A DNA stretch of 64,000 nucleotides, taken from positions 62,001-126,000 of the forward strand of contig FOBR01000005.1 in assembly GCA_900109895.1 (NCBI GenBank). Direction: 5' to 3'. Below are positions 46,863 to 59,481 of this stretch, piece after piece. The notes under the pieces are model-generated. The model worked only from the letters and a program-made list of their open reading frames with translations, did not search any database and had not been told where the DNA came from. The translations under genes and the position numbers were made by a program. The stretch is from a bacterium A37T11. GTDB taxonomy: Bacteria; Bacteroidota; Bacteroidia; Sphingobacteriales; Sphingobacteriaceae. Position 1 is the stretch's first letter. Every line of letters begins with the position of its first letter.

Positions 46863-47444
46863 GTGAAAACTACCGGGCGATACCATCTTTTCAACGATGA
46901 AGCTTTGGTTCCTTTGTTATACAAAGGAGACCATGAAGCTTTTACGGAAATTTATAATCGTTATTTAAGCCTGCTGTACCGCCATGCCTATAAAGTATTG
47001 AATGATTCAGAAGCCTGTAACGATGTCGTGCAAGAAGTATTTGTCACTTTATGGGCCAAGCGTGAAAGCCTATCTCTCACCGGCACCCTCTCTGCCTATC
47101 TTTATACCATGGTGCGCAACAGGGTACTCGATCAAGTCAGCCATCAGCAGGTTGTTGAAAAATACATCGGATCCATACGCGATTTTGCCAACCAAGGCAG
47201 CTGGACCACCGATGAACGGATGCGGGAAAAAGAATTGTTGGCCATCATCGAAGCCGAAAAGGCAAAGCTGCCTCCACGCACCCGCGAGTTGTTTGAATTA
47301 AACCGGGAGCAGAACCTCAGTTACAAAGAAATCGGACAGCAATTAAATATTTCAGAAAAAACCGTCAAAAAGCAAGTGCATAATGCACTAAAGGCATTAC
47401 GCATTAAACTTAGCTCCTTCCTAACTATATTTCCCTTTTTGTAG
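46863..47444 (+). CDS. ECF sigma-70 factor (FecI-type) of the PUL
   Basis: A 193-residue ECF sigma with a GTG start at 46863. Region 2 is at residues 20-95 (LLYKGDHEAFTEIYNRYLSLLYRHAYKVL, then VVQEVFVTLWAKRESL) and region 4 at about 130-185 (LPPRTRELFELNREQNLSYKEIGQQLNISEKTVKKQV). In Bacteroidota such sigmas pair with a FecR and a SusC that has an STN domain; both are found downstream (49592 and 50923). Signalling from the outer membrane to this sigma should switch on the PUL. Unusually, an oxidoreductase gene separates it from fecR. Confidence 0.95.
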   Translation: MKTTGRYHLFNDEALVPLLYKGDHEAFTEIYNRYLSLLYRHAYKVLNDSEACNDVVQEVFVTLWAKRESLSLTGTLSAYLYTMVRNRVLDQVSHQQVVEKYIGSIRDFANQGSWTTDERMREKELLAIIEAEKAKLPPRTRELFELNREQNLSYKEIGQQLNISEKTVKKQVHNALKALRIKLSSFLTIFPFL

Positions 47445-47502
47445 GTGTTTTTTAAAACCGTCAGACTTTTTTCATTTACTAGTACTCCTTTAACATAGTT
47501 TC

Positions 47503-47511
47503 GCCGTCTAA
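47503..47511 (+). repeat. Spacer motif GCCGTCTAA before the FAD gene (first copy)
   Basis: GCCGTCTAA is followed 7 bases later by the ATG at 47519. The same nine bases precede the fecR ATG by 6 bases (49577-49585). Both spacers also carry an ACT-rich block (TACTAGTACTCC here, TACTACTCCC at the second). Confidence 0.6.
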
Positions 47512-47518
47512 AGGATAT

Positions 47519-49540
47519 ATGAACTTAAAGCAATTTTTTTTCTATTTCCAGGTGTGTGCATGGACGATTATGCTATCGGCCTATGCCCATCCCTCATCAG
47601 CGCAAAACAAATTTAATACCCTCGACGCAGACATCTGCATTTATGGCAGTACCTCTGCGGGGGTTATTGCAGCCTATACAGCTGCCAAAGCAGGGAAAAA
47701 AGTGATTCTGATCGATCCGGGCCACCGTTTAGGAGGAATGAGTAGTGGGGGATTAGGACAAACGGATATAGGCAATAAATATGTAGTAAAAGGGCTTGCG
47801 CTTGATTTTTACCGAAAAGTGGGCCAGCATTACGGAAAATTTGAACGTTGGATATTTGAACCGCATGTTGCTGATAGTATCTTTCAAGCCTATATGCGCG
47901 CATGCCCATCAACCATATTATTTGATCATGTACTCACGTCCGTTGATAAAAAAGATCGTCGAATTACCAGTATCCATCTCCGAAAAACAACAGACAATAA
48001 AAAGGCCACGTCGGTCCACGCAAAAGAATTTATCGATTGTTCTTACGAAGGTGACCTGATGGCCATGTCTGGTGTGTCTTATGCTGTAGGCCGCGAAAAT
48101 AATAGTCAATACCAGGAAACAATCAATGGGGTACAGCTAATGACCAAACATCAGTTTCCGGATGGTATAGATCCATATAATGTACCGGGGGATTCCTCCA
48201 GTGGCCTGGTGTGGGGAATTAGTAAAAACACCTTGTTGCCAAATGGTACAGGAGATAAAAAAGTGCAAGCCTATAATTTCAGGCTCACACTAACCAATGT
48301 ACCCGAAAACCGAATCCCGATTGAAAAGCCTGATAATTACGACCCCACGCATTATGAACTATTAAAACGGCTGAAGGAAAAGTCGCCATGGAAACAGTTG
48401 TCGGATGTGTTTGGGTGGAGTATAATGCCGAACGGGAAGACAGACATTAATAACAGTGGGGGGTTCTCAACCGATATGATCGGTATGAACTGGGACTATC
48501 CCAATGCTGGTTACGAGCAACGGCAGCAAATTATCAAAGCCCACGAAGACTATACAAAAGGCCTGCTGTACTTTTTAGGTCATGACCCTGCTGTGCCGGG
48601 CGCCATCCGGGAGGAAATGCTGCAGTGGGGTTACCCCAGAGATGAATACCAGGATAATCATCACTGGACCCCGCAATTGTATATCCGTGAAGCAAGAAGA
48701 ATGATCGGTGAGCTGGTCATGACCCAGCACCATTGCCAGGGAAGTGAAGTGGTCACGGACGATGTGGGCTACGCCGCCTATACCATGGACTCGCATAACT
48801 GCGACCGGCTGGTGGTCAATGGTATGGTCAAAAATGAAGGCGACGTCCAGGTTGGTGGTTTCCCCCCGTTTCCCATAGCTTACCGGGCCATTATCCCGCA
48901 ACGAACAGAAGTGGGCAACCTGCTGGTGCCCGTATGTTTATCCGCTACCCATATTGCCTATGGTTCTATACGGATGGAACCCGTCTTTATGGTGTTGGGA
49001 CAGTCAGCCGCAATAGCCGCATGCCTGGCTATTAAGCACAGAAAATCTGTACAGGACGTATCTCCAGATGCCATAAAAGCGCAACTTCGGCAAAATCCGA
49101 AAGGTGACGGGCGGACCGCCGATGTCTGGATAGATAGCCGCGACAGCACCCAGGTAAGTTATACAGGCACATGGAAAGAAGTAAAGCAAGGAGGTTATGG
49201 ATCAGCATTCCGCGTGAGTTCCGATGTTGCTTCCTTCAGTAGCGCCCGGTTCACTCCCAAAGGACTGGCTGCGGGCAAATACAGCATTTACAGTTATTAT
49301 CCCAAACTAAAAGCAGGTAGTTCAAAAATGGAATACGTGCTTTCAGACGGAAAAATACGAACACGGAAAGAGATAGACCTGCATCAGGTACACATTGAAG
49401 GGCAAACCTCCGGCGACTGGCTTTACATCGGAGATATGAATGTGGATGCCAATACCCAAAGTTTTGTGGAAATCACAAATTCCGGGGCTGATGGGGCGGT
49501 TGCTGCCAACGCCGTTTTATTTGTGCCCAAGATAAAATAA
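47519..49540 (+). CDS. FAD-dependent oxidoreductase with golvesin-like C-terminal domain (PUL)
   Basis: A 673-residue exported protein (signal peptide ending HPSSAQ). The N-terminal 480 residues form an FAD-binding fold: DICIYGSTSAGVIAAYTAAKAGKKVILI and the sequence RLGGMSSGGLGQTDIGN, with PF12831-type features downstream (IDCSYEGDLMAMSGVSYAVGREN, RAIIPQRTEVGNLLVPVCLSATHIAYGSIRMEP). The C-terminal ~130 residues, after IDSRDSTQVSYTGTWKEV, form a beta-sandwich of the golvesin C-terminal type, thought to bind or anchor to polymer. Such proteins are often mislabelled xanthan lyase. The substrate may be a sugar of the PUL polysaccharide. It lies within the sigma/fecR pair and shares spacer motifs on both sides. 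Confidence 0.85.
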   Translation: MNLKQFFFYFQVCAWTIMLSAYAHPSSAQNKFNTLDADICIYGSTSAGVIAAYTAAKAGKKVILIDPGHRLGGMSSGGLGQTDIGNKYVVKGLALDFYRKVGQHYGKFERWIFEPHVADSIFQAYMRACPSTILFDHVLTSVDKKDRRITSIHLRKTTDNKKATSVHAKEFIDCSYEGDLMAMSGVSYAVGRENNSQYQETINGVQLMTKHQFPDGIDPYNVPGDSSSGLVWGISKNTLLPNGTGDKKVQAYNFRLTLTNVPENRIPIEKPDNYDPTHYELLKRLKEKSPWKQLSDVFGWSIMPNGKTDINNSGGFSTDMIGMNWDYPNAGYEQRQQIIKAHEDYTKGLLYFLGHDPAVPGAIREEMLQWGYPRDEYQDNHHWTPQLYIREARRMIGELVMTQHHCQGSEVVTDDVGYAAYTMDSHNCDRLVVNGMVKNEGDVQVGGFPPFPIAYRAIIPQRTEVGNLLVPVCLSATHIAYGSIRMEPVFMVLGQSAAIAACLAIKHRKSVQDVSPDAIKAQLRQNPKGDGRTADVWIDSRDSTQVSYTGTWKEVKQGGYGSAFRVSSDVASFSSARFTPKGLAAGKYSIYSYYPKLKAGSSKMEYVLSDGKIRTRKEIDLHQVHIEGQTSGDWLYIGDMNVDANTQSFVEITNSGADGAVAANAVLFVPKIK

Positions 49541-49576
49541 AAAATTAATTTTTTACTACTCCCTTTTTGGGATATA

Positions 49577-49585
49577 GCCGTCTAA
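49577..49585 (+). repeat. Spacer motif GCCGTCTAA before fecR (second copy)
   Basis: GCCGTCTAA ends 6 bases before the fecR ATG at 49592, as in the spacer before the FAD gene. TACTACTCCC precedes it. Confidence 0.6.
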
Positions 49586-49591
49586 CAATAT

Positions 49592-50722
49592 ATGAACAAC
49601 GAGGAGATACGGATTTTACTAAGTAAATATCAAGCTGGGACGCTTTCGGATGAAGAACGGGCGATCCTTGAAAGCTGGTATTTAAGTACAGTAAAAAACG
49701 CATCGGTCACTATCAGCGATCAAGATCTTCAGTTCAATTTAAAGGCAGTCGAAAAAGTAATTATCTCCGGAACCAGGCCGGGAAGGCCCAGTTCGAGAAG
49801 TCTCTGGGTGTCTGCTGCTTTGATTCTGTTGATAGGGACAGGTCTTTTATTTGTCGTATCAAAGAAGGTAAAGCCGGAATCGGTCAAGGAAGAAATAGTC
49901 TATGTGGCCCCAGGCCGCGACCAAGCAACCCTCAAGCTATCAAATGGCAAAAAGATCGATCTGAATGGAGAGAAAAAAGGGATTGTAGTTGCCAATAATG
50001 AAATAGCTTATAATGATGGGAGTAAAGTCGAAGAAACTAAGTCTACCCATTTTGAATTATCTACCCCAAAAGGCGGGCAATACCGAGTAGTGCTGCCTGA
50101 TGGGACCAAAGTATGGTTAAATGCGGCTTCATCGTTGCGATATCCGGCTACATTTGATCCGGACAAACGTGAAGTTGAACTGGTCTTTGGTGAAGCCTAC
50201 TTTGAAGTTGCAAGCAGAGCACAATCTGCTAATTTGCCGCCATTCATCGTAAAAAGCAATGGTTTAGAGACCATTGTATTGGGCACAGCCTTTAATATTT
50301 CTGCGTATAAAGAGGATGCGCAATCGGCCATTACACTCGTAAATGGAAAAGTAAAGGTGTCCGCAAATACAGGAAAGAAAAACGAAGTGATACTTAAACC
50401 TGGCCAGGAAACTGTAGAGACTAATAGGGGGCTTGTGACGCGAGATGCAGATATTCCGTCGGTGATAGGCTGGAAAGAAGGGCTATTTAAGTTTAACGAA
50501 ACAGAATTACAGGCGGTTATGAACCAGCTGAGCCGCTGGTATAATTTAGAAGTGGAATATAGAGGTACAATTAAGGAAACCTACATATATGGGGTCATCA
50601 AACGCAACAAGCCATTAGATGAAGTATTAAACATCCTTAAAGAAGGGGGTGTTAACGTTAAAATTGAATCTAGCAGTAACGGTACAGCAAAAAAAGTAAT
50701 CGTATATCCGGCTATTTTATGA
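49592..50722 (+). CDS. FecR-family anti-sigma factor of the PUL
   Basis: A 376-residue inner-membrane protein. The cytoplasmic N-terminal 65 residues (NNEEIRILLSKYQAGTLSDEERAILESWY) bind the sigma; one helix follows (VSAALILLIGTGLLFVVS); then the FecR domain (RVVLPDGTKVWLNAASSLRYP, VELVFGEAYFEV, LGTAFNISAY, TLVNGKVKV) and a DUF4974-type C-terminal part (LQAVMNQLSRWYNLEVEY). It relays the signal from the STN domain of SusC to the ECF sigma. Confidence 0.95.
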   Translation: MNNEEIRILLSKYQAGTLSDEERAILESWYLSTVKNASVTISDQDLQFNLKAVEKVIISGTRPGRPSSRSLWVSAALILLIGTGLLFVVSKKVKPESVKEEIVYVAPGRDQATLKLSNGKKIDLNGEKKGIVVANNEIAYNDGSKVEETKSTHFELSTPKGGQYRVVLPDGTKVWLNAASSLRYPATFDPDKREVELVFGEAYFEVASRAQSANLPPFIVKSNGLETIVLGTAFNISAYKEDAQSAITLVNGKVKVSANTGKKNEVILKPGQETVETNRGLVTRDADIPSVIGWKEGLFKFNETELQAVMNQLSRWYNLEVEYRGTIKETYIYGVIKRNKPLDEVLNILKEGGVNVKIESSSNGTAKKVIVYPAIL

Positions 50723-50922
50723 TAATAAACCAATTATTTACATAAACAACTATTATGAGCATGATATTACAAACCTGAAGGATCCGGAAATAAGGGACTG
50801 ACATAAAAAAACCGGATAGTGCGGTAACACTACCCGGCAAATTGCTTGGGCCAGACCATACACATTGCAGTAAAGCAATACGAGAATCAACATTTTAGAT
50901 GTAACCCAAACGGTACAAACAT
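50723..50922 (+). promoter_or_regulatory. fecR-susC leader region with a hairpin
   Basis: The 200 bases between fecR and susC carry no gene. At 50812-50837 is a hairpin: CCGG-A-TAGTG, loop CGGTAA, CACTA-C-CCGG, preceded by seven A. It may be a leader RNA structure for susC; on the minus strand it would look like a terminator with a T run. No clear TAnnTTTG is seen. Confidence 0.5.
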
Positions 50923-53900
50923 ATGAATTTTAACGCATGTGTTCAAGGCATCGTTATACGAACGCCTTTAACCATTAAATTGCTACTAATTATGAAGTTG
51001 GCAGTTTTATTAACTGTATTCACCATTTTACAGGCTGCTGCCGCCAGTTATGCCCAGCGTATAACGTTGAAAGTAACGAATATGCCACTGTCAAAAGCAA
51101 TGGACCAGGTGTATGCGCAGAGTGGCTATCAGGTTTTTTTGAATGGTAAGGATGTGGCACAGGCAAAAGTAACTGCAAATTTGTTGAATGCCAGCATCGA
51201 AGAAGCGATGGACAAGCTGTTGGATGGCCTTTCGCTGAGTTGGAAACTTAAAGACAATACCATCATTATAAAGCAAAAAGCCGCGCCTATGAAATTGCCT
51301 GCAATGACTAAGCCCGTAGAAGAAGACTGGCAACAGAAGGAGGTTCGGGGAAAAGTAACTGACCAGGCGGGGCAGCCAGTGGCTGGTGTGACGATACGGA
51401 TGAAATCAGGGCTGAATGGTGCCACCACAGACAGCTTGGGAAATTATCGCTTACCAATAGATCATGCAAATGATGTATTGACCTTTTCAATGGTGGGTTT
51501 TAAAGTTCAGGAAATACCGGTAAATAACCGCCAACGGATTGATGTAACGCTTGAAGAAGAAAAATCAGATCTGGACGAAGTGGTGGTAGTGGCCTTTGGT
51601 ACGCAAAAAAAGAAAGAAGTAGTCGGTTCTATTACCACGATAACACCCTCAGAACTTAAAATACCATCCAGCAATTTGACCACCGCTTTGGCAGGCAGGT
51701 TAGCGGGGGTAATTGCCTATCAGCGAAGTGGCGAACCAGGGGCTGACAATGCCGATTTTTTTATTCGTGGTGTAACCACTTTTGGATACAAGAAAGATCC
51801 GCTCATCCTGATCGATGGCATCGAACTAACCACTACAGACCTATCTCGCATGCAGGTGGATGACATTGCCAGTTTTTCTATCTTAAAAGACGCCACCTCT
51901 ACAGCACTTTATGGCGCCAGAGGGGCCAACGGGGTCATCCTGATCACCACCAAAGAAGGGGTAGAAGGCAAAGCCAAAGTATCCCTAAGACTAGAAAATT
52001 CCATTTCATCTGCCACCAACAATGTAGAATTTACAGACCCAATAACGTATATGCGGTTGGGTAATGAAGCCGTACTGACACGGAATCCGCTGGGCCAATT
52101 TCCATACCCGGAAGAAAAGATTGATAACACCATCGCCGGGACTAATCCCTATGTATATCCTGCTACCGATTGGCGTAAAACGCTATTTAAAGACTATACC
52201 ATGAACCAGCGTGGCAATTTCAACGTAACAGGAGGAGGGAAAGTAGCACAATATTACCTCGCAGCCACGATGAACAGAGACAACGGTGTGCTCAAAGTAG
52301 ACAAGCGAAATAATTTTAATAATAACATCCGGCTCAATACCTACTCCATGCGTTCAAATGTAACCATCAATTTAACCAATACCACGCAGGTAGCCGTGAG
52401 GCTGTCGGGTACATTTGATGGCTATAACGGACCATTGGATGGGGGTACGGGCATGTATAAAAAAGTAGCCTACTCAAATCCAGTTCTTTTTCCGGCCTAT
52501 TACCCAGTAGATGATGCCAACAAGTTTGTCCAGCACATCATGTTTGGCAACTATGGTGATGGTGGGTACATCAACCCCTATGCTGATATGGTCAAAGGAT
52601 ACAAAGAATACACACGTTCAAACATACTGGCGCAATTTGAAGTAAAACAAAATCTGGATTTTGTGACAAAGGGGCTTTCGCTACAGGCATTGTTCAATAC
52701 CACGCGTACCAATTATTTTGACGTAAGGCGTTTTTATAATCCGTTTTGGTATACACTGGGTAACTATGATAAATACACCAATCAATTTACAACCACACTC
52801 TTAAATCCCAATGGTGGTACAGAATATCTGAGTTATTCAGAAGGATTGAAGCAGATCACGGCTACCACCTATATACAGGGAACATTAAATTACAACCGTA
52901 CATTCTCGGAAAAACACACAGTAGGGGCCTTGTTGGTATACCTCATGAACGACCAGTTAAAAGCCAATGCCGGGTCGTTACAACTTTCATTGCCGCGTCG
53001 AAACCTGGGAATCTCCGGACGTTTGTCTTATGGATATGACAACCGCTATTTCTTTGAATACGATTTTGGTTACAACGGTACAGAACGTTTTTCAAAAGCG
53101 CATCGGTTTGGTTATTTTCCGTCGGTAGGCGCCGCATGGACCATATCCAATGAACCTTTCTTTAAACCATGGGCCAATACCGTGACCAACCTGAAAATTC
53201 GGGGCACCTATGGCAAGGTGGGTAACGATGCCATTGGTAATGAAGATGAACGGTTTCTCTATCTGGCGGATGTAAATATGAACGACGCAACCCGAACTTC
53301 AGTTTTCGGCACTGACTTAAACTATGGCCGTTCAGGCATTTTTATCAATCGTTATGGCAATGATCAGATCACGTGGGAAGAAGCATTGAAAACGAACATA
53401 GGTTTTGAATTGAGCCTATGGAACAAGCTAAATATTCTTTTAGATCTTTATAAAGAAAAACGGAGCAATATTCTGATGAATAGGGCGAGCATTCCAGCTT
53501 CCATGGGTTTGTTGAACAATGCCGATATACAGGCCAATTTAGGAAAGGCAAGTGCGAAAGGATTTGACTTGTCTGTAGACTACAACCAAACCATTAACAA
53601 CGATTGGTGGGTGCAGGCCCGGGCGAATTTAACCTATGCCACGAACAAATTTGAAGAATATGATGAACCAGACTATTCCGATACCTATTTATCACATGTA
53701 GGACAACCGATAAATCAGAAATGGGGTTATATCGCAGAACGGCTGTTTGCAGATGATGCAGACGTAAAGAATTCGCCGCCACAGAGCTTTGGCGAGTACG
53801 GTGCCGGCGACATCAAATATCATGACGTGAACGGTGATGGGCAGATCACCACACGAGACAGGGTGCCGATCGGCTACCCAACATCACCTGAGATTGTGCA

Positions 53901-54363
53901 CGGATTTGGATTCTCGTTTGGCTATAAAAGCTTGGATGTTTCGGCATTTTTTCAGGGTTTGTCCCGTGAATCTTTCTGGGTGGACGCCGATTCCACAGCT
54001 CCATTTGTGAATGATCGAGCGCTCTTAAAGGTATATGCTGACGATCATTGGTCTGAACAAAACCGTGATCTATATGCAATATGGCCTCGATTAAGCGCCC
54101 GTCCAATTGCCAACAATACCCTTATTAGCACTTGGTTTATGCGCAATGGCGCCTTTCTTCGGTTAAAGAATGTCGAGGTGGGCTATACGCTCCCTGCTAA
54201 ATTAACCAAGCGTATCGCTATAGAAAAAGCGCGACTTTACGTTAACGGGATGAATTTATTCTTATGGAGCCGATTTAAACTATGGGATGTGGAGATGGGT
54301 GGTAATGGTTTAGGTTACCCACTGCAGCGGGTGATCAATATGGGTGTTCAACTATCTTTTTGA
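50923..54363 (+). CDS. SusC/RagA TonB-dependent outer-membrane transporter with STN domain (PUL)
   Basis: An 1146-residue transporter. The signal peptide ends SYAQ; an STN (secretin/TonB short N-terminal) domain at about 45-115 (LKVTNMPLSKAMDQVYAQSGYQ) contacts FecR; a carboxypeptidase-regulatory-like domain (EVRGKVTDQAGQPVAGVTIR) at about 140-210; the plug with VVVAFGTQKKKEVVGSI and SILKDATSTALYGARGANGVI (TonB-dependent receptor features); then the 22-stranded barrel ending GVQLSF. It brings oligosaccharides into the periplasm with SusD. The frame is open for MNFNACVQGIVIR upstream of MKLAVLLT; both starts keep the signal peptide. Confidence 0.97.
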   Translation: MNFNACVQGIVIRTPLTIKLLLIMKLAVLLTVFTILQAAAASYAQRITLKVTNMPLSKAMDQVYAQSGYQVFLNGKDVAQAKVTANLLNASIEEAMDKLLDGLSLSWKLKDNTIIIKQKAAPMKLPAMTKPVEEDWQQKEVRGKVTDQAGQPVAGVTIRMKSGLNGATTDSLGNYRLPIDHANDVLTFSMVGFKVQEIPVNNRQRIDVTLEEEKSDLDEVVVVAFGTQKKKEVVGSITTITPSELKIPSSNLTTALAGRLAGVIAYQRSGEPGADNADFFIRGVTTFGYKKDPLILIDGIELTTTDLSRMQVDDIASFSILKDATSTALYGARGANGVILITTKEGVEGKAKVSLRLENSISSATNNVEFTDPITYMRLGNEAVLTRNPLGQFPYPEEKIDNTIAGTNPYVYPATDWRKTLFKDYTMNQRGNFNVTGGGKVAQYYLAATMNRDNGVLKVDKRNNFNNNIRLNTYSMRSNVTINLTNTTQVAVRLSGTFDGYNGPLDGGTGMYKKVAYSNPVLFPAYYPVDDANKFVQHIMFGNYGDGGYINPYADMVKGYKEYTRSNILAQFEVKQNLDFVTKGLSLQALFNTTRTNYFDVRRFYNPFWYTLGNYDKYTNQFTTTLLNPNGGTEYLSYSEGLKQITATTYIQGTLNYNRTFSEKHTVGALLVYLMNDQLKANAGSLQLSLPRRNLGISGRLSYGYDNRYFFEYDFGYNGTERFSKAHRFGYFPSVGAAWTISNEPFFKPWANTVTNLKIRGTYGKVGNDAIGNEDERFLYLADVNMNDATRTSVFGTDLNYGRSGIFINRYGNDQITWEEALKTNIGFELSLWNKLNILLDLYKEKRSNILMNRASIPASMGLLNNADIQANLGKASAKGFDLSVDYNQTINNDWWVQARANLTYATNKFEEYDEPDYSDTYLSHVGQPINQKWGYIAERLFADDADVKNSPPQSFGEYGAGDIKYHDVNGDGQITTRDRVPIGYPTSPEIVHGFGFSFGYKSLDVSAFFQGLSRESFWVDADSTAPFVNDRALLKVYADDHWSEQNRDLYAIWPRLSARPIANNTLISTWFMRNGAFLRLKNVEVGYTLPAKLTKRIAIEKARLYVNGMNLFLWSRFKLWDVEMGGNGLGYPLQRVINMGVQLSF

Positions 54364-54385
54364 CGAAAAATATAAACAGACAGAA

Positions 54386-56275
54386 ATGAAAAGATTAAGA
54401 AATGGGTTAATGGTGCTGTTGATGAGCGGGAGCTTATTTTCCTGCCATTACCTGGATATCGTGCCAGACAATATTGCTACGATGGAATATGTGTTTCGTA
54501 TGCGAAGCACCACAGAACAATACTTGTTTACCCTATATAGTTATCTGCCTAAATTTACCGATACCTATGTATATCCCACTATACTTGGGGGCGACGAAAT
54601 ATGGGCTAATGATTATAATGTCAATTTGAGTACACCGGCATGGCAAATCGCTAAGGGTTTCCAAAACATTACCGATCCCTACTCCAATTACTGGGGCGGG
54701 GGCAACGGTGGGCGTGGGCTATATGTGGCCATCCGCGATTGCAACACATTTCTGGAGCACATTCATGAAGTGCCAGACATGGACGATTATGAAAAAAATC
54801 GCTGGGCCGCCGAAGCCAAATTTTTAAAGGCGTACTATCATTTTTTTCTGATGCGGATGTATGGCCCCATTGTATTGGTCAAACAAAACCTGCCCATTAC
54901 CACTTCACCAGAAGGAGTTAAATCATTGCAGGCTCCGATTGATTCATGTGTGAACTACATAACCGGATTGCTTGATTCGGCTACAACCGATCTCCCAGAG
55001 CGTATTGTGGCCGAAGCGACAGAACAAGGCCGGATAACCAAAGCCATAGCAAAGGCCGTGAAGGCACAGGTGCTGGCACTTTCTGCCAGCCCATTATTCA
55101 ATGGAAATCCGGATTATGCCACGATCACTTCCAACGGGATAAAATTATTTGGCGAGGGGTATGATGCCAGCAAGTGGGAGCGCGCGGCCATTGCGTGTAA
55201 AGAAGCCATAGACGAGGCAGTAATTGCAGGACATCAAATATACTACTATAATGGAGCTTTTCTGCCTTTTCCAGGATCCCCGGCTACCCTTACGGAAATG
55301 AGTGTGCGAAGCGCGGTTTGTGAAAAGTGGAATTCGGAGGTCATATGGACCAGTACCAATAACCGGGCTAGCACGCTCCAGTCGGAAAATTTGCCGCGTT
55401 TGTATACTGGGGACAAGCAAACAGGTGCACTATCTTCATTTGGTGTACCCCTAAAAATAGCCGAGCAGTTCTATACCAGTAATGGTGTCCCGATCAATGA
55501 AGATAAAACTTGGGATTATAACGCACGGTATGGAATACGTACGGCTACTTCTGCCGATGCACTCAGGATAAGTCCCAATTATAAAACGGCAAATCTAAAT
55601 TTTGACCGCGAGACACGGTTTTATTCCGACCTCGGATTTGATGGAGGGCGGTGGTTTGGCCAAGGGCGCTTTAATGACGCAGACAATGTGTATGTTCAGG
55701 CTAAGTTAGGTCAGATTGCAAACAACCATGCCTGGGCCTATTCCATGACGGGCTATTGGGCCAAAAAACTCGTAAATCCACAATCAGTATCATCCGCAAC
55801 TGAAATCACCATTCAATCATATCCCTGGCCCATTATTCGGCTTTCGGATATATATTTGCTCTATAGTGAGGCGCTTAATGAATGGCAAGGACCAAGCGAA
55901 GAAGCCTATAAATGGATCGATCTGGTGCGCGCTCGCGCCGGACTAAAAGGTGTTACAGAGTCGTGGGCCAATTATTCCATCAACCCCAATGCGCCACAAA
56001 GCAAAGCAGGATTTCGAAGTATTATTCACCGCGAACGGTTAATCGAACTTGCTTTTGAAGGAAGCCGGTTTTGGGATCTTCGCCGCTGGAAAGAAGCCGA
56101 ACAAGTGCTGAATCAGCCGATAACCGGATGGACAGTCACCGGAAAAACGGAAGACGCCTATTATCAGTTGAAATATATCTACAATCAGAAATTCGAAAAA
56201 AGAGACTATTTATGGCCACAGAAGGAAGAAGACCTGATTGAGAATAACCTGTTGCTGCAAAACCCAGGGTGGTAA
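54386..56275 (+). CDS. SusD/RagB surface glycan-binding lipoprotein (PUL)
   Basis: A 629-residue lipoprotein: MKRLRNGLMVLLMSGSLFSCHYLDIVPD carries the lipobox at residue 20 (LFSC). The alpha-helical SusD fold shows AAEAKFLKAYYHFFLMRMYGPIVLV, AKAVKAQVLALSASPLFNG, IIRLSDIYLLYSEALNEW, and RSIIHRERLIELAFEGSRFWDLRRW, all typical. It forms the lid over SusC and binds the polysaccharide. The start at 54386 is chosen over 54344, which lies within susC. Confidence 0.96.
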   Translation: MKRLRNGLMVLLMSGSLFSCHYLDIVPDNIATMEYVFRMRSTTEQYLFTLYSYLPKFTDTYVYPTILGGDEIWANDYNVNLSTPAWQIAKGFQNITDPYSNYWGGGNGGRGLYVAIRDCNTFLEHIHEVPDMDDYEKNRWAAEAKFLKAYYHFFLMRMYGPIVLVKQNLPITTSPEGVKSLQAPIDSCVNYITGLLDSATTDLPERIVAEATEQGRITKAIAKAVKAQVLALSASPLFNGNPDYATITSNGIKLFGEGYDASKWERAAIACKEAIDEAVIAGHQIYYYNGAFLPFPGSPATLTEMSVRSAVCEKWNSEVIWTSTNNRASTLQSENLPRLYTGDKQTGALSSFGVPLKIAEQFYTSNGVPINEDKTWDYNARYGIRTATSADALRISPNYKTANLNFDRETRFYSDLGFDGGRWFGQGRFNDADNVYVQAKLGQIANNHAWAYSMTGYWAKKLVNPQSVSSATEITIQSYPWPIIRLSDIYLLYSEALNEWQGPSEEAYKWIDLVRARAGLKGVTESWANYSINPNAPQSKAGFRSIIHRERLIELAFEGSRFWDLRRWKEAEQVLNQPITGWTVTGKTEDAYYQLKYIYNQKFEKRDYLWPQKEEDLIENNLLLQNPGW

Positions 56276-56307
56276 TACATATGCAAAAATTATTGATTGA
56301 AAAGAAT

Positions 56308-57504
56308 ATGAAATCACGTCTTATATATGGGGCCCAGCTAGCACTACTGTTAGTGGGCGCCTGTTCGGAGGAAAAGCTTAAACCGCAAACAAACGGCGAC
56401 AAGGCTCCCGCAGCAGTTACCAATTTACGGGTTGAAAATGGAGCGGGTAAGGCAAAGATCACCTATGACGTACCAAATGATCCTACACTATTCTATGTAA
56501 AAGCCGAATATGAAAACAGGCCTGGGCATAAAATGGAAGCCATAGCTACCTACTATAATAACAGCATTGTTCTGGAAGGGTTTAACAATACGGATGAACG
56601 GGAAGTAAAGTTATATTCCATAAGCAGGGCTGAGGTCCGGTCTGAGCCAATAACTGTAAAAGTAAAGCCATTAACAGCACCCATTCAATCTACCCTGGCT
56701 TCCCTGGAACCGATAGCCGATTTTGGAGGTATCTCTGTAAAGTACGAAAATGCCGACACCGCCAATATTGCCATCGGGGTATTAACACGGGGACAGAGAG
56801 AGGAGCCCATTCAGTCAGACATGTATTATACAGCGGAGGCTGTGGGTGAATTTGCATCACGGGGTTTTAATGATACGGAACAGTGGTTTGGCTTGTATGT
56901 ACGCGATCAGTGGCAAAATTATTCAGATACGGTATGGCACCGTCTAAAGCCGTTATTTGAACAACAAATGGATAAGAAGAAGTTTGTGGGCTTGAAGCTA
57001 CCTACCGACGCTTCCACATTTGGATCAACGACGCTAGCAAACCTTTGGAATGATGTTGTCAGTGGGGGATCTAGCTCGACCAAAACATGGTATCGCTCTG
57101 TCAACGGGGCAGGAATTCCTCACTGGATCACTTTTGATATGGGTGTTACTGCTAAGCTAAGCCGGTTTGTGGAAGTTCCCCGTGGCGCATTTGATGAACA
57201 AAATTTGCTTTACGCTGCGGGTGACCCTCAATTATTTGAAGTCTGGGGAACTACCCAATATAATCCGGATGGAAGTTTTAATGGCTGGACTAAATTGATG
57301 GACTGTGAAGTGGTAAAATCTTCAGGGCTGCCAATAACCCTCAATTCCAACGACGATATTTTACGCGCTCAGGAAGGACATCAATTTAAATTTCCCATTG
57401 ATGCACCCCCAGTAAGGTACATTCGCTTGAAATTCTTGCAGACATTCGGTAACTCTGATTATAGCTGGATGGCAGAAATCACCTTTTTTGGCCAATTACA
57501 ATAA
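56308..57504 (+). CDS. Surface lipoprotein with DUF4959, DUF5126 and DUF5000-like domains (PUL)
   Basis: A 398-residue lipoprotein with the lipobox LLVGAC and CSEEKLKP afterwards. DUF4959-like N-terminal part (APAAVTNLRVENGAGKAKITYDVPND) is followed by a fibronectin-like middle domain and a C-terminal DUF5000-like, discoidin-type carbohydrate-binding part (ITFDMGVTAKLSRFVEVP, FEVWGTTQYNPDGSF, PVRYIRLKFLQTFG). It resembles the SGBP-type proteins that often follow SusD and probably assists in catching the glycan. Confidence 0.85.
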   Translation: MKSRLIYGAQLALLLVGACSEEKLKPQTNGDKAPAAVTNLRVENGAGKAKITYDVPNDPTLFYVKAEYENRPGHKMEAIATYYNNSIVLEGFNNTDEREVKLYSISRAEVRSEPITVKVKPLTAPIQSTLASLEPIADFGGISVKYENADTANIAIGVLTRGQREEPIQSDMYYTAEAVGEFASRGFNDTEQWFGLYVRDQWQNYSDTVWHRLKPLFEQQMDKKKFVGLKLPTDASTFGSTTLANLWNDVVSGGSSSTKTWYRSVNGAGIPHWITFDMGVTAKLSRFVEVPRGAFDEQNLLYAAGDPQLFEVWGTTQYNPDGSFNGWTKLMDCEVVKSSGLPITLNSNDDILRAQEGHQFKFPIDAPPVRYIRLKFLQTFGNSDYSWMAEITFFGQLQ

Positions 57505-57506
57505 AT

Positions 57507-58196
57507 ATGAAAAACATGAAGATGCAAATGAATTATATGTGCTGGTGGCTACTCTTAGGAGTATTTGTGGCCGCCTGTGATAAGGCCGATGAAAATTACA
57601 AAAAGTACATTCCCAATGGGGAAACCGTCTATCCGGCCAAAGTCGATTCCTTAAAAGCAAATCCTGGGAAGAACCGCATCCAACTATACTGGCTCCTCAA
57701 ATCCGACTCCCGTATTACCAAGACCAAAGTATTTTGGAACAATAAACAGGATTCGCTTGAACTAAGCGTCACGTCTAAAAACCCGATTGATACATTCCGT
57801 ACATTGCTTACTAACTTGGCTGAAGGTCCTTATATATTCCAAGTATATACCTATAATCCCGAAAATGCACGGTCTGTTAAATCGGAAGTGAATGGCGAAG
57901 TTTACGGTGAGGCCTATGAATCATTCCTGATCAACCGAACACTTCGCAGCATCACGGCAAATGCAGGCACTGTCACTTTAAAATGGGATCAGGCAGACCC
58001 GCGTTCGCCCGGTGTCCTCCTTAACTTTAAAGATCAAAATGGCTTGGCACAAGAAGTGCTCGTGCCATCGACAGAAGGAACTACGATTTTAAATACCGTT
58101 CCACAAACAGGAAGTATGAGCTTCAGAACGCTTATTCTTCCAGTTTCCAATGCGATAGATACACTAAAGGCCCCGGAATTGAATGTGGATTTTTAG
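57507..58196 (+). CDS. DUF4998-like surface lipoprotein (PUL)
   Basis: A 229-residue lipoprotein with the lipobox FVAAC near residue 24. The mature part has NYKKYIPNGETVYPAKVDSLKANPGKNRIQLYWLL, the DUF4998 opening, and two fibronectin-III-like domains rich in Trp/Tyr and beta strands. It lies 2 bases after the DUF4959-type gene. Pairs of DUF4959 and DUF4998 genes are frequent in PULs; the second is thought to serve glycan binding at the surface. Confidence 0.83.
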   Translation: MKNMKMQMNYMCWWLLLGVFVAACDKADENYKKYIPNGETVYPAKVDSLKANPGKNRIQLYWLLKSDSRITKTKVFWNNKQDSLELSVTSKNPIDTFRTLLTNLAEGPYIFQVYTYNPENARSVKSEVNGEVYGEAYESFLINRTLRSITANAGTVTLKWDQADPRSPGVLLNFKDQNGLAQEVLVPSTEGTTILNTVPQTGSMSFRTLILPVSNAIDTLKAPELNVDF

Positions 58197-58206
58197 AATT
58201 GGTAAA

Positions 58207-58246
58207 ATCCAATATTAGGTTTAAAAAAGTTTACCTAATTTTGGAT
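58207..58246 (+). promoter_or_regulatory. Long inverted repeat before the alginate-lyase-family gene
   Basis: ATCCAATATTAGGT (58207-58220) and ACCTAATTTTGGAT (58233-58246) pair over 14 bases with one mismatch and a 12-base loop. The palindrome ends 26 bases before the lyase ATG. It could be an operator or an RNA stem that lowers readthrough from the upstream lipoprotein gene. Confidence 0.5.
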
Positions 58247-58272
58247 AACCATATAAACAAATTTGGCTGTAT

Positions 58273-59481
58273 ATGATGAGAAATTCGATGATCAGCTTTT
58301 GTGTAATTTTAAGTTGTTTGGTGAGTGCTTCTTTCGCAAAAGCCACAGAACCACCAAACACCTTTTTAACACGTGGCGACCTCTTGCTAAGCAACAAAAA
58401 AAAGATTGCATCCGGAGATGCTGTGTTGAGTGCAGCTTTAACTGCATTGCAGCAAGAGGCAGATAAGGCTTTAAATAATGGTCCGTATACGGTAACTTCT
58501 AAAAGTATACTTCCCGCCAGCGGCGACAAACACGATTATATGAGCGTAGGGCCCTACTGGTGGCCGGATAAAAGCAAACCCGATGGTTTGCCCTATATAC
58601 GCAAAGATGGAAAGGTTAATCCGGAGCGGTTTGATATTCCGGATGCGGATCAGCTGAAGAAGCTTACCAACGATGTCCAAGTGTTGGCAGTCACGTATTA
58701 TTATACCGGCAAAGCGGTATATGCCATTAAAGCCTCCCGTCTCCTTAAAACCTGGTTTTTGAATGCCGATACCCGGATGAATCCCAATTTAAACTATGGC
58801 CAGGCGATACCGGGTATTACCGAGGGGCGTGGCATCGGGCTGATCGACTCCAGGGCTTTTGTAGAAATGCTGGATGTCATCCCGCTTTTGTCAGGAATCC
58901 CTGAGTGGAAGGACACCGATACGAAAGCACTACAGCAATGGTTTAAAGCATTTGCAGACTGGATGCAGGAAAGTCCTTTGGGTATCGACGAATCGGATGA
59001 ACACAATAATCACGGTACGTTTTATGATTGCCAATTGATCGGATATGGCCTCTTTACAGGGGATACGGCCCTGGCAACGCAAGTATTAAAGAATAATAGT
59101 TACGCCCGCATCGAAAGCCAACTTGACACTGACGGAAAGCAACCTTTAGAACTGGCAAGAACACGTCCGTGGAATTATACAACGATGAACCTGCGTGGCT
59201 TTTTTACGATTGCCCGCTTGGCAGAGAACGTGCATACCGATCTTTGGCATTATACTACCCCAACTGGGAAAAGCATCCGCAAAGCACTAGTTTGGATGCT
59301 GCCTTACGGAACCGGGCAAAAAGATTTTCCCTATAAAAGCATTGAACCGGTAAACACCGATGGTTTTCAGCAATTGATCCGGACAGCTTCACAGGTTTAT
59401 CCGGATATCAGTTCCAAACAGTGGGTAGTGGATGATAAAAAGCTTCCACCTTTCTTCCTGCTAACAGAGCGGATGCTGTGA
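58273..59481 (+). CDS. Alginate-lyase-family protein (PF05426-like) (PUL)
   Basis: A 402-residue exported enzyme (signal peptide ending SASFAKA). It has the family features DYMSVGPYWWPDKSKPDGLPYI and NLNYGQAIPGITEGRGIGLIDSRAF, and the catalytic-region motif EHNNHGTFYDCQ, an (alpha/alpha) barrel fold of the PF05426 class. These lyases (PL5, PL38 and relatives) cleave uronic-acid chains such as alginate or glucuronan by beta-elimination; which chain cannot be told here. It is the last gene of the PUL and the only polysaccharide-cutting enzyme in it. The start could be either of two adjacent ATGs (58273 or 58276). Confidence 0.88.
   Translation: MMRNSMISFCVILSCLVSASFAKATEPPNTFLTRGDLLLSNKKKIASGDAVLSAALTALQQEADKALNNGPYTVTSKSILPASGDKHDYMSVGPYWWPDKSKPDGLPYIRKDGKVNPERFDIPDADQLKKLTNDVQVLAVTYYYTGKAVYAIKASRLLKTWFLNADTRMNPNLNYGQAIPGITEGRGIGLIDSRAFVEMLDVIPLLSGIPEWKDTDTKALQQWFKAFADWMQESPLGIDESDEHNNHGTFYDCQLIGYGLFTGDTALATQVLKNNSYARIESQLDTDGKQPLELARTRPWNYTTMNLRGFFTIARLAENVHTDLWHYTTPTGKSIRKALVWMLPYGTGQKDFPYKSIEPVNTDGFQQLIRTASQVYPDISSKQWVVDDKKLPPFFLLTERML

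Follow-up and report, generated by a model that had tools for sequence, protein, structure and literature searches.

A FAD oxidoreductase gene between the sigma and FecR genes of an otherwise ordinary Bacteroidota PUL

The 64,000-nucleotide stretch of DNA analysed here (the window) belongs to contig C20 of the 5.09 Mb genome of bacterium A37T11 and includes, at positions 46863-59481, an ordinary Bacteroidota PUL built of known parts, whose one oddity is its local gene order: a FAD-dependent oxidoreductase gene lies between the genes of the ECF sigma factor and the FecR-type anti-sigma factor. The explanation that we hold, as a whole and with good confidence, is that this ordinary PUL is of mosaic origin and that the FAD gene came in by insertion between the members of a native sigma/FecR pair. 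It draws on the gene order, the rarity of the position, the placement of the genes in trees, two matching leader elements and conserved catalytic residues, from which a signalling route, a promoter role, a substrate and two enzyme activities are proposed below.

Gene content and predicted signalling

All eight genes are co-directional on one strand (+), and the content and order given in the original prediction were confirmed gene by gene by the ORF listing and by Pfam/NCBIfam searches. The first gene (46863-47444) encodes a 193-residue ECF sigma factor of the Bacteroidota type with a hydrophobic C-terminus (TIGR02985, 150 bits in the NCBIfam profile search). It is followed after 74 nt by the FAD gene (47519-49540), whose 673-residue product carries a Sec-type signal peptide, as read by eye, a full-length match to PF12831 (E 1e-108; profile positions 1-416 of 416) and a golvesin C-terminal domain (Golvesin_C, E 3e-13); its dinucleotide-binding glycine motif reads GSTSAG at residue 43, the third position not being Gly. 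Another 51 nt downstream begins the gene for the 376-residue FecR-type anti-sigma factor (49592-50722; Pfam FecR and FecR_C), and behind it lie those for a SusC-type TonB-dependent transporter of 1146 residues with an STN signalling domain (50923-54363; TIGR04056 and STN matches) and a SusD-type surface glycan-binding lipoprotein (54386-56275; Pfam match, start re-set to an internal ATG). Two further lipoproteins are recognised by Pfam: one combines DUF4959, DUF5126 and DUF5000 in a single protein (56269-57504), with a predicted lipobox followed by CSEEK and an internal ATG that may be the true start, and the other matches DUF4998 (57507-58196). The last gene (58273-59481) encodes a secreted, PL38-like polysaccharide lyase of 402 residues (PF05426).

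The set that defines a sigma/FecR-controlled SusCD PUL, namely ECF sigma factor, FecR, STN-bearing SusC and SusD, is thus complete, and the domain matches bear out the predicted SusC/D uptake locus with sigma/FecR signalling; with such PULs of Bacteroidota the window locus also shares the lipoproteins and a secreted carbohydrate-active enzyme. By this likeness, substrate passing SusC would cause the STN domain to signal to FecR and so release the sigma factor, while glycan binding at the cell surface would fall to SusD and the two lipoproteins. The usual order, in which FecR directly follows sigma, is customary rather than strictly defining, and it is this order that the FAD gene violates.

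Position of the FAD gene and its leader

In the larger loci compared, mostly from other genomes, sigma and FecR were adjacent in 65 of 65 cases (counted as FecR genes with a same-strand sigma gene within 4 kb), whereas in the window the FAD gene separates them. Within the window's own 5.09 Mb genome there are 80 FecR-domain genes, about 70 of which have a sigma gene no more than 350 nt upstream, and an extra ORF splits the pair at three places: the window locus and loci L278 and L286. The extra ORFs at the latter two (L278:1840-3381 and L286:1980-3173) encode AAA-ATPases, matching PF09820 with PDDEXK_9 and AAA_14, respectively. Elsewhere in the same genome, a single 860-residue ORF lies directly upstream of a FecR gene (L073:3595-6174, minus strand; G000:C16:55495-58074) and joins ECF sigma domains, a hydrophobic signal-peptide-like stretch and a melibiase-like domain just under the Pfam cut-off; it is possibly a sigma-glycosidase fusion, or may contain an internal start.

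Seen from the side of the oxidoreductase, the arrangement is also unusual, as the original prediction had maintained. Among 103 long-form FAD genes, drawn from the window's family and from other families, only that of the window lies between sigma and FecR, a count that depends on sampling, many of the relatives being viewed with 1.5 kb flanks only; 54 of the 103 stand directly behind SusD, and the usual order in 20-kb maps is sigma, FecR, SusC, SusD, FAD. Locus L343, considered as a second sigma-FAD case, was rejected: its sigma factor is long and of a distant type, with no FecR behind it. The prediction had named FAD genes lying always outside the pair in homologous loci as the observation that would tell against its idea; that is what the neighbourhood comparison found in every relative examined, and a meaning of the position as part of a conserved signalling unit is not supported. 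Given the preference for the place behind SusD, the single exception in the window and the adjacency of the other pairs, the FAD gene is a frequent passenger of PULs that has changed its place here.

The FAD and FecR genes have similar leaders. Two 26-nt stretches share the pattern CTCCYTT-N12-CCGTCTA: CTCCTTT-N12-CCGTCTA at 47485-47510, ending 8 nt before the FAD start codon, and CTCCCTT-N12-CCGTCTA at 49559-49584, ending 7 nt before that of FecR. With no mismatch allowed, these are the only matches in the 5.09 Mb genome, a figure obtained with a pattern derived from the two copies themselves; the fairer measure is the alignment of the two leaders, whose score was equalled by 3 of 2000 shuffles and by 48 of 3081 pairs of other FecR leaders. 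Taken alone, the match is only moderately significant. Words such as CGTCT and TGTCTTA are, in addition, enriched in the sigma-FecR gaps of this genome, and are what ECF-type -10 elements would lead one to expect. Both copies are probably promoters of the window sigma factor and, since its leader matches that of FecR, the FAD gene is probably driven by the same sigma factor. A generic promoter scan gave matches at chance level, and housekeeping promoters sought by the pattern TTTG/TANNTTTG were set aside, the sole match in the PUL lying within SusC on the opposite strand.

Proposed mosaic origin

When transport-module maps were compared across 46 loci, the closest SusC/SusD/DUF4959 module was found in four Chitinophaga species (L192, L193, L194 and L211), with identities to the window proteins of 66-69% for SusC, 67-73% for SusD and 61-69% for the DUF4959-type lipoprotein. 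These loci likewise contain a golvesin-type FAD gene, but there it is the last gene, behind a GDSL esterase; unlike the window locus they show no PF05426 lyase, and their sigma and FecR are only about 30% like those of the window. In the FAD tree, the window gene falls in a clade of 25 (support 100*) made of its own family's genes, which follow SusD, and the FADs of the Chitinophaga module form a clade apart, of 8 rows with 4 distinct sequences (100*). The nearest relatives of the window sigma factor are the resident sigma genes of L285 and L271 together with the module-linked L198/L200, and those of its FecR include the FecR of the resident pairs L271, L285 and L172, both trees being weakly supported (85-94). 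The GC content of the FAD gene (47.1%) is close to that of its neighbours (42-46%), so that base composition gives no sign of a recent foreign origin.

These placements suggest a mosaic in which the SusC/SusD/DUF4959/DUF4998 module has its best match in Chitinophaga and the FAD gene would come from the PUL-associated clade of the window's own family, where it is normally the gene behind SusD. Because sigma and FecR are nearest to the same resident pairs, the FAD gene most likely entered an intact sigma/FecR pair.

That the inserted gene might be neutral, with no link to the glycan that is taken up, we regard as unlikely. It would agree with the placing of the window FAD in a different clade from the FADs linked to the same module in Chitinophaga, and with the uptake of unrelated AAA-ATPase ORFs into the sigma-FecR gap at two other places in the genome; however, the 673-residue frame is intact, other lineages (Chitinophaga, L205) likewise combine FAD genes with this module, and the leader resembles that of FecR. 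A deletion between two neighbouring PULs, with sigma left from a sigma-FecR-SusC-SusD-FAD locus and FecR and the remainder from a second, would suit the usual place of FAD at the end of a PUL, behind which a further sigma gene at times begins (L295, L341). Yet the sigma factors of the nearest FAD loci (L122-L124) are only 27-28% identical to that of the window, which, like FecR, is nearest to the same resident pairs and is also near the module-linked L198/L200; such a fusion seems quite improbable, and less likely than insertion into an intact pair. Very little probability remains for the FAD protein as a functional part of the switch, for instance as a redox input gating FecR, its position then reflecting its role: the tight packing between sigma and FecR and the shared leader element speak for this, but no relative examined has FAD at this position, and the protein, which bears a Sec signal peptide, falls in a clade that consists of ordinary PUL enzymes encoded behind SusD. 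It is just as doubtful that insertion at the FecR leader gave the FAD gene its own sigma-dependent promoter, so that the induced switch would yield a redox enzyme first, whose product or redox state would feed back on FecR.

Lyase, oxidoreductase and the predicted substrate

In relatives the transport module is paired with GH36, GH115, GH20, GH2 and other enzymes, so that a substrate assignment from SusC/D type was rejected and only the lyase speaks to the substrate. It matches PF05426 with E 2e-88 (297 bits in Pfam) and aligns over about 320 residues with BoPL38 (8bdq, E 3e-66) and with 3nfv (E 1.5e-83). The catalytic residues of BoPL38 are H243 and Y298 (PMC13169297), to which H247 and Y302 of the window lyase correspond; beside the catalytic Tyr, BoPL38 has His297 and the window lyase Asn. 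Characterised members of PL38 differ in substrate, using alginate, glucuronan or hyaluronan (PMC13027841). The family match and both conserved residues uphold the predicted assignment to a uronic-acid-cutting family, and the enzyme probably cuts an acidic polysaccharide, which may be of the alginate, glucuronan or hyaluronan type. BoPL38 is housed in an alginate PUL together with PL6 and PL17 (PMC11381880), whereas the window PUL has one PF05426 lyase and the genome no second gene of this type, an observation that speaks against an alginate pathway of the PL17 type. GH88/105-type genes lie at other sites, in line with the expectation of a single lyase with partner enzymes elsewhere. The lyase would cut the imported uronic-acid oligosaccharide, probably in the periplasm, and the GH88/105-type enzymes would complete its breakdown. 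Its closest relative found in the window's family, at 54% identity, is the PF05426 domain of a 1084-residue protein from a SusC/SusD locus (L052:11665-14916), in which it is joined to a PL8 lyase.

A search of solved structures with the FAD protein sequence returned no relative, and nothing direct was found in the literature on PF12831 enzymes in PULs. An AlphaFold model based on nine sequences reached a pLDDT of just 56, and the fold search recovered nothing more specific than the general FAD fold of the type known from urocanate/fumarate reductase and Thi4; this poor model was set aside. In two distant loci (L127:9290-19593 and L130:9191-19433), golvesin-type and short FAD genes stand beside a DUF7133-cytochrome c protein, a KDPG-type aldolase and a galactonate dehydratase, neighbourhoods that fit a periplasmic sugar oxidation feeding an aldonate pathway. 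By analogy the exported window enzyme probably, or at least plausibly, oxidises the released sugar or uronate, a role carried over from those loci, since the window PUL has no cytochrome, galactonate dehydratase, KDPG-type aldolase or other aldonate-pathway gene. In two other families, the golvesin-type FAD family is present at a strict cut-off in 127 of 222 genomes and in 42 of 246, respectively. Several small-genome members of another family (G646-G677) carry the FAD match within open frames of about 1170-1230 residues, which may be fusions.

In summary, the locus illustrates how PULs are assembled as mosaics, with transport module, regulator pair and enzymes having different nearest relatives, and how the sigma-FecR gap can take in a gene without destroying the pair. 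The shared leader element is a site at which the action of one ECF sigma factor of Bacteroidota can be tested, and the golvesin-type FAD family, for which no characterised member was found, is more worth pursuing than this single position.
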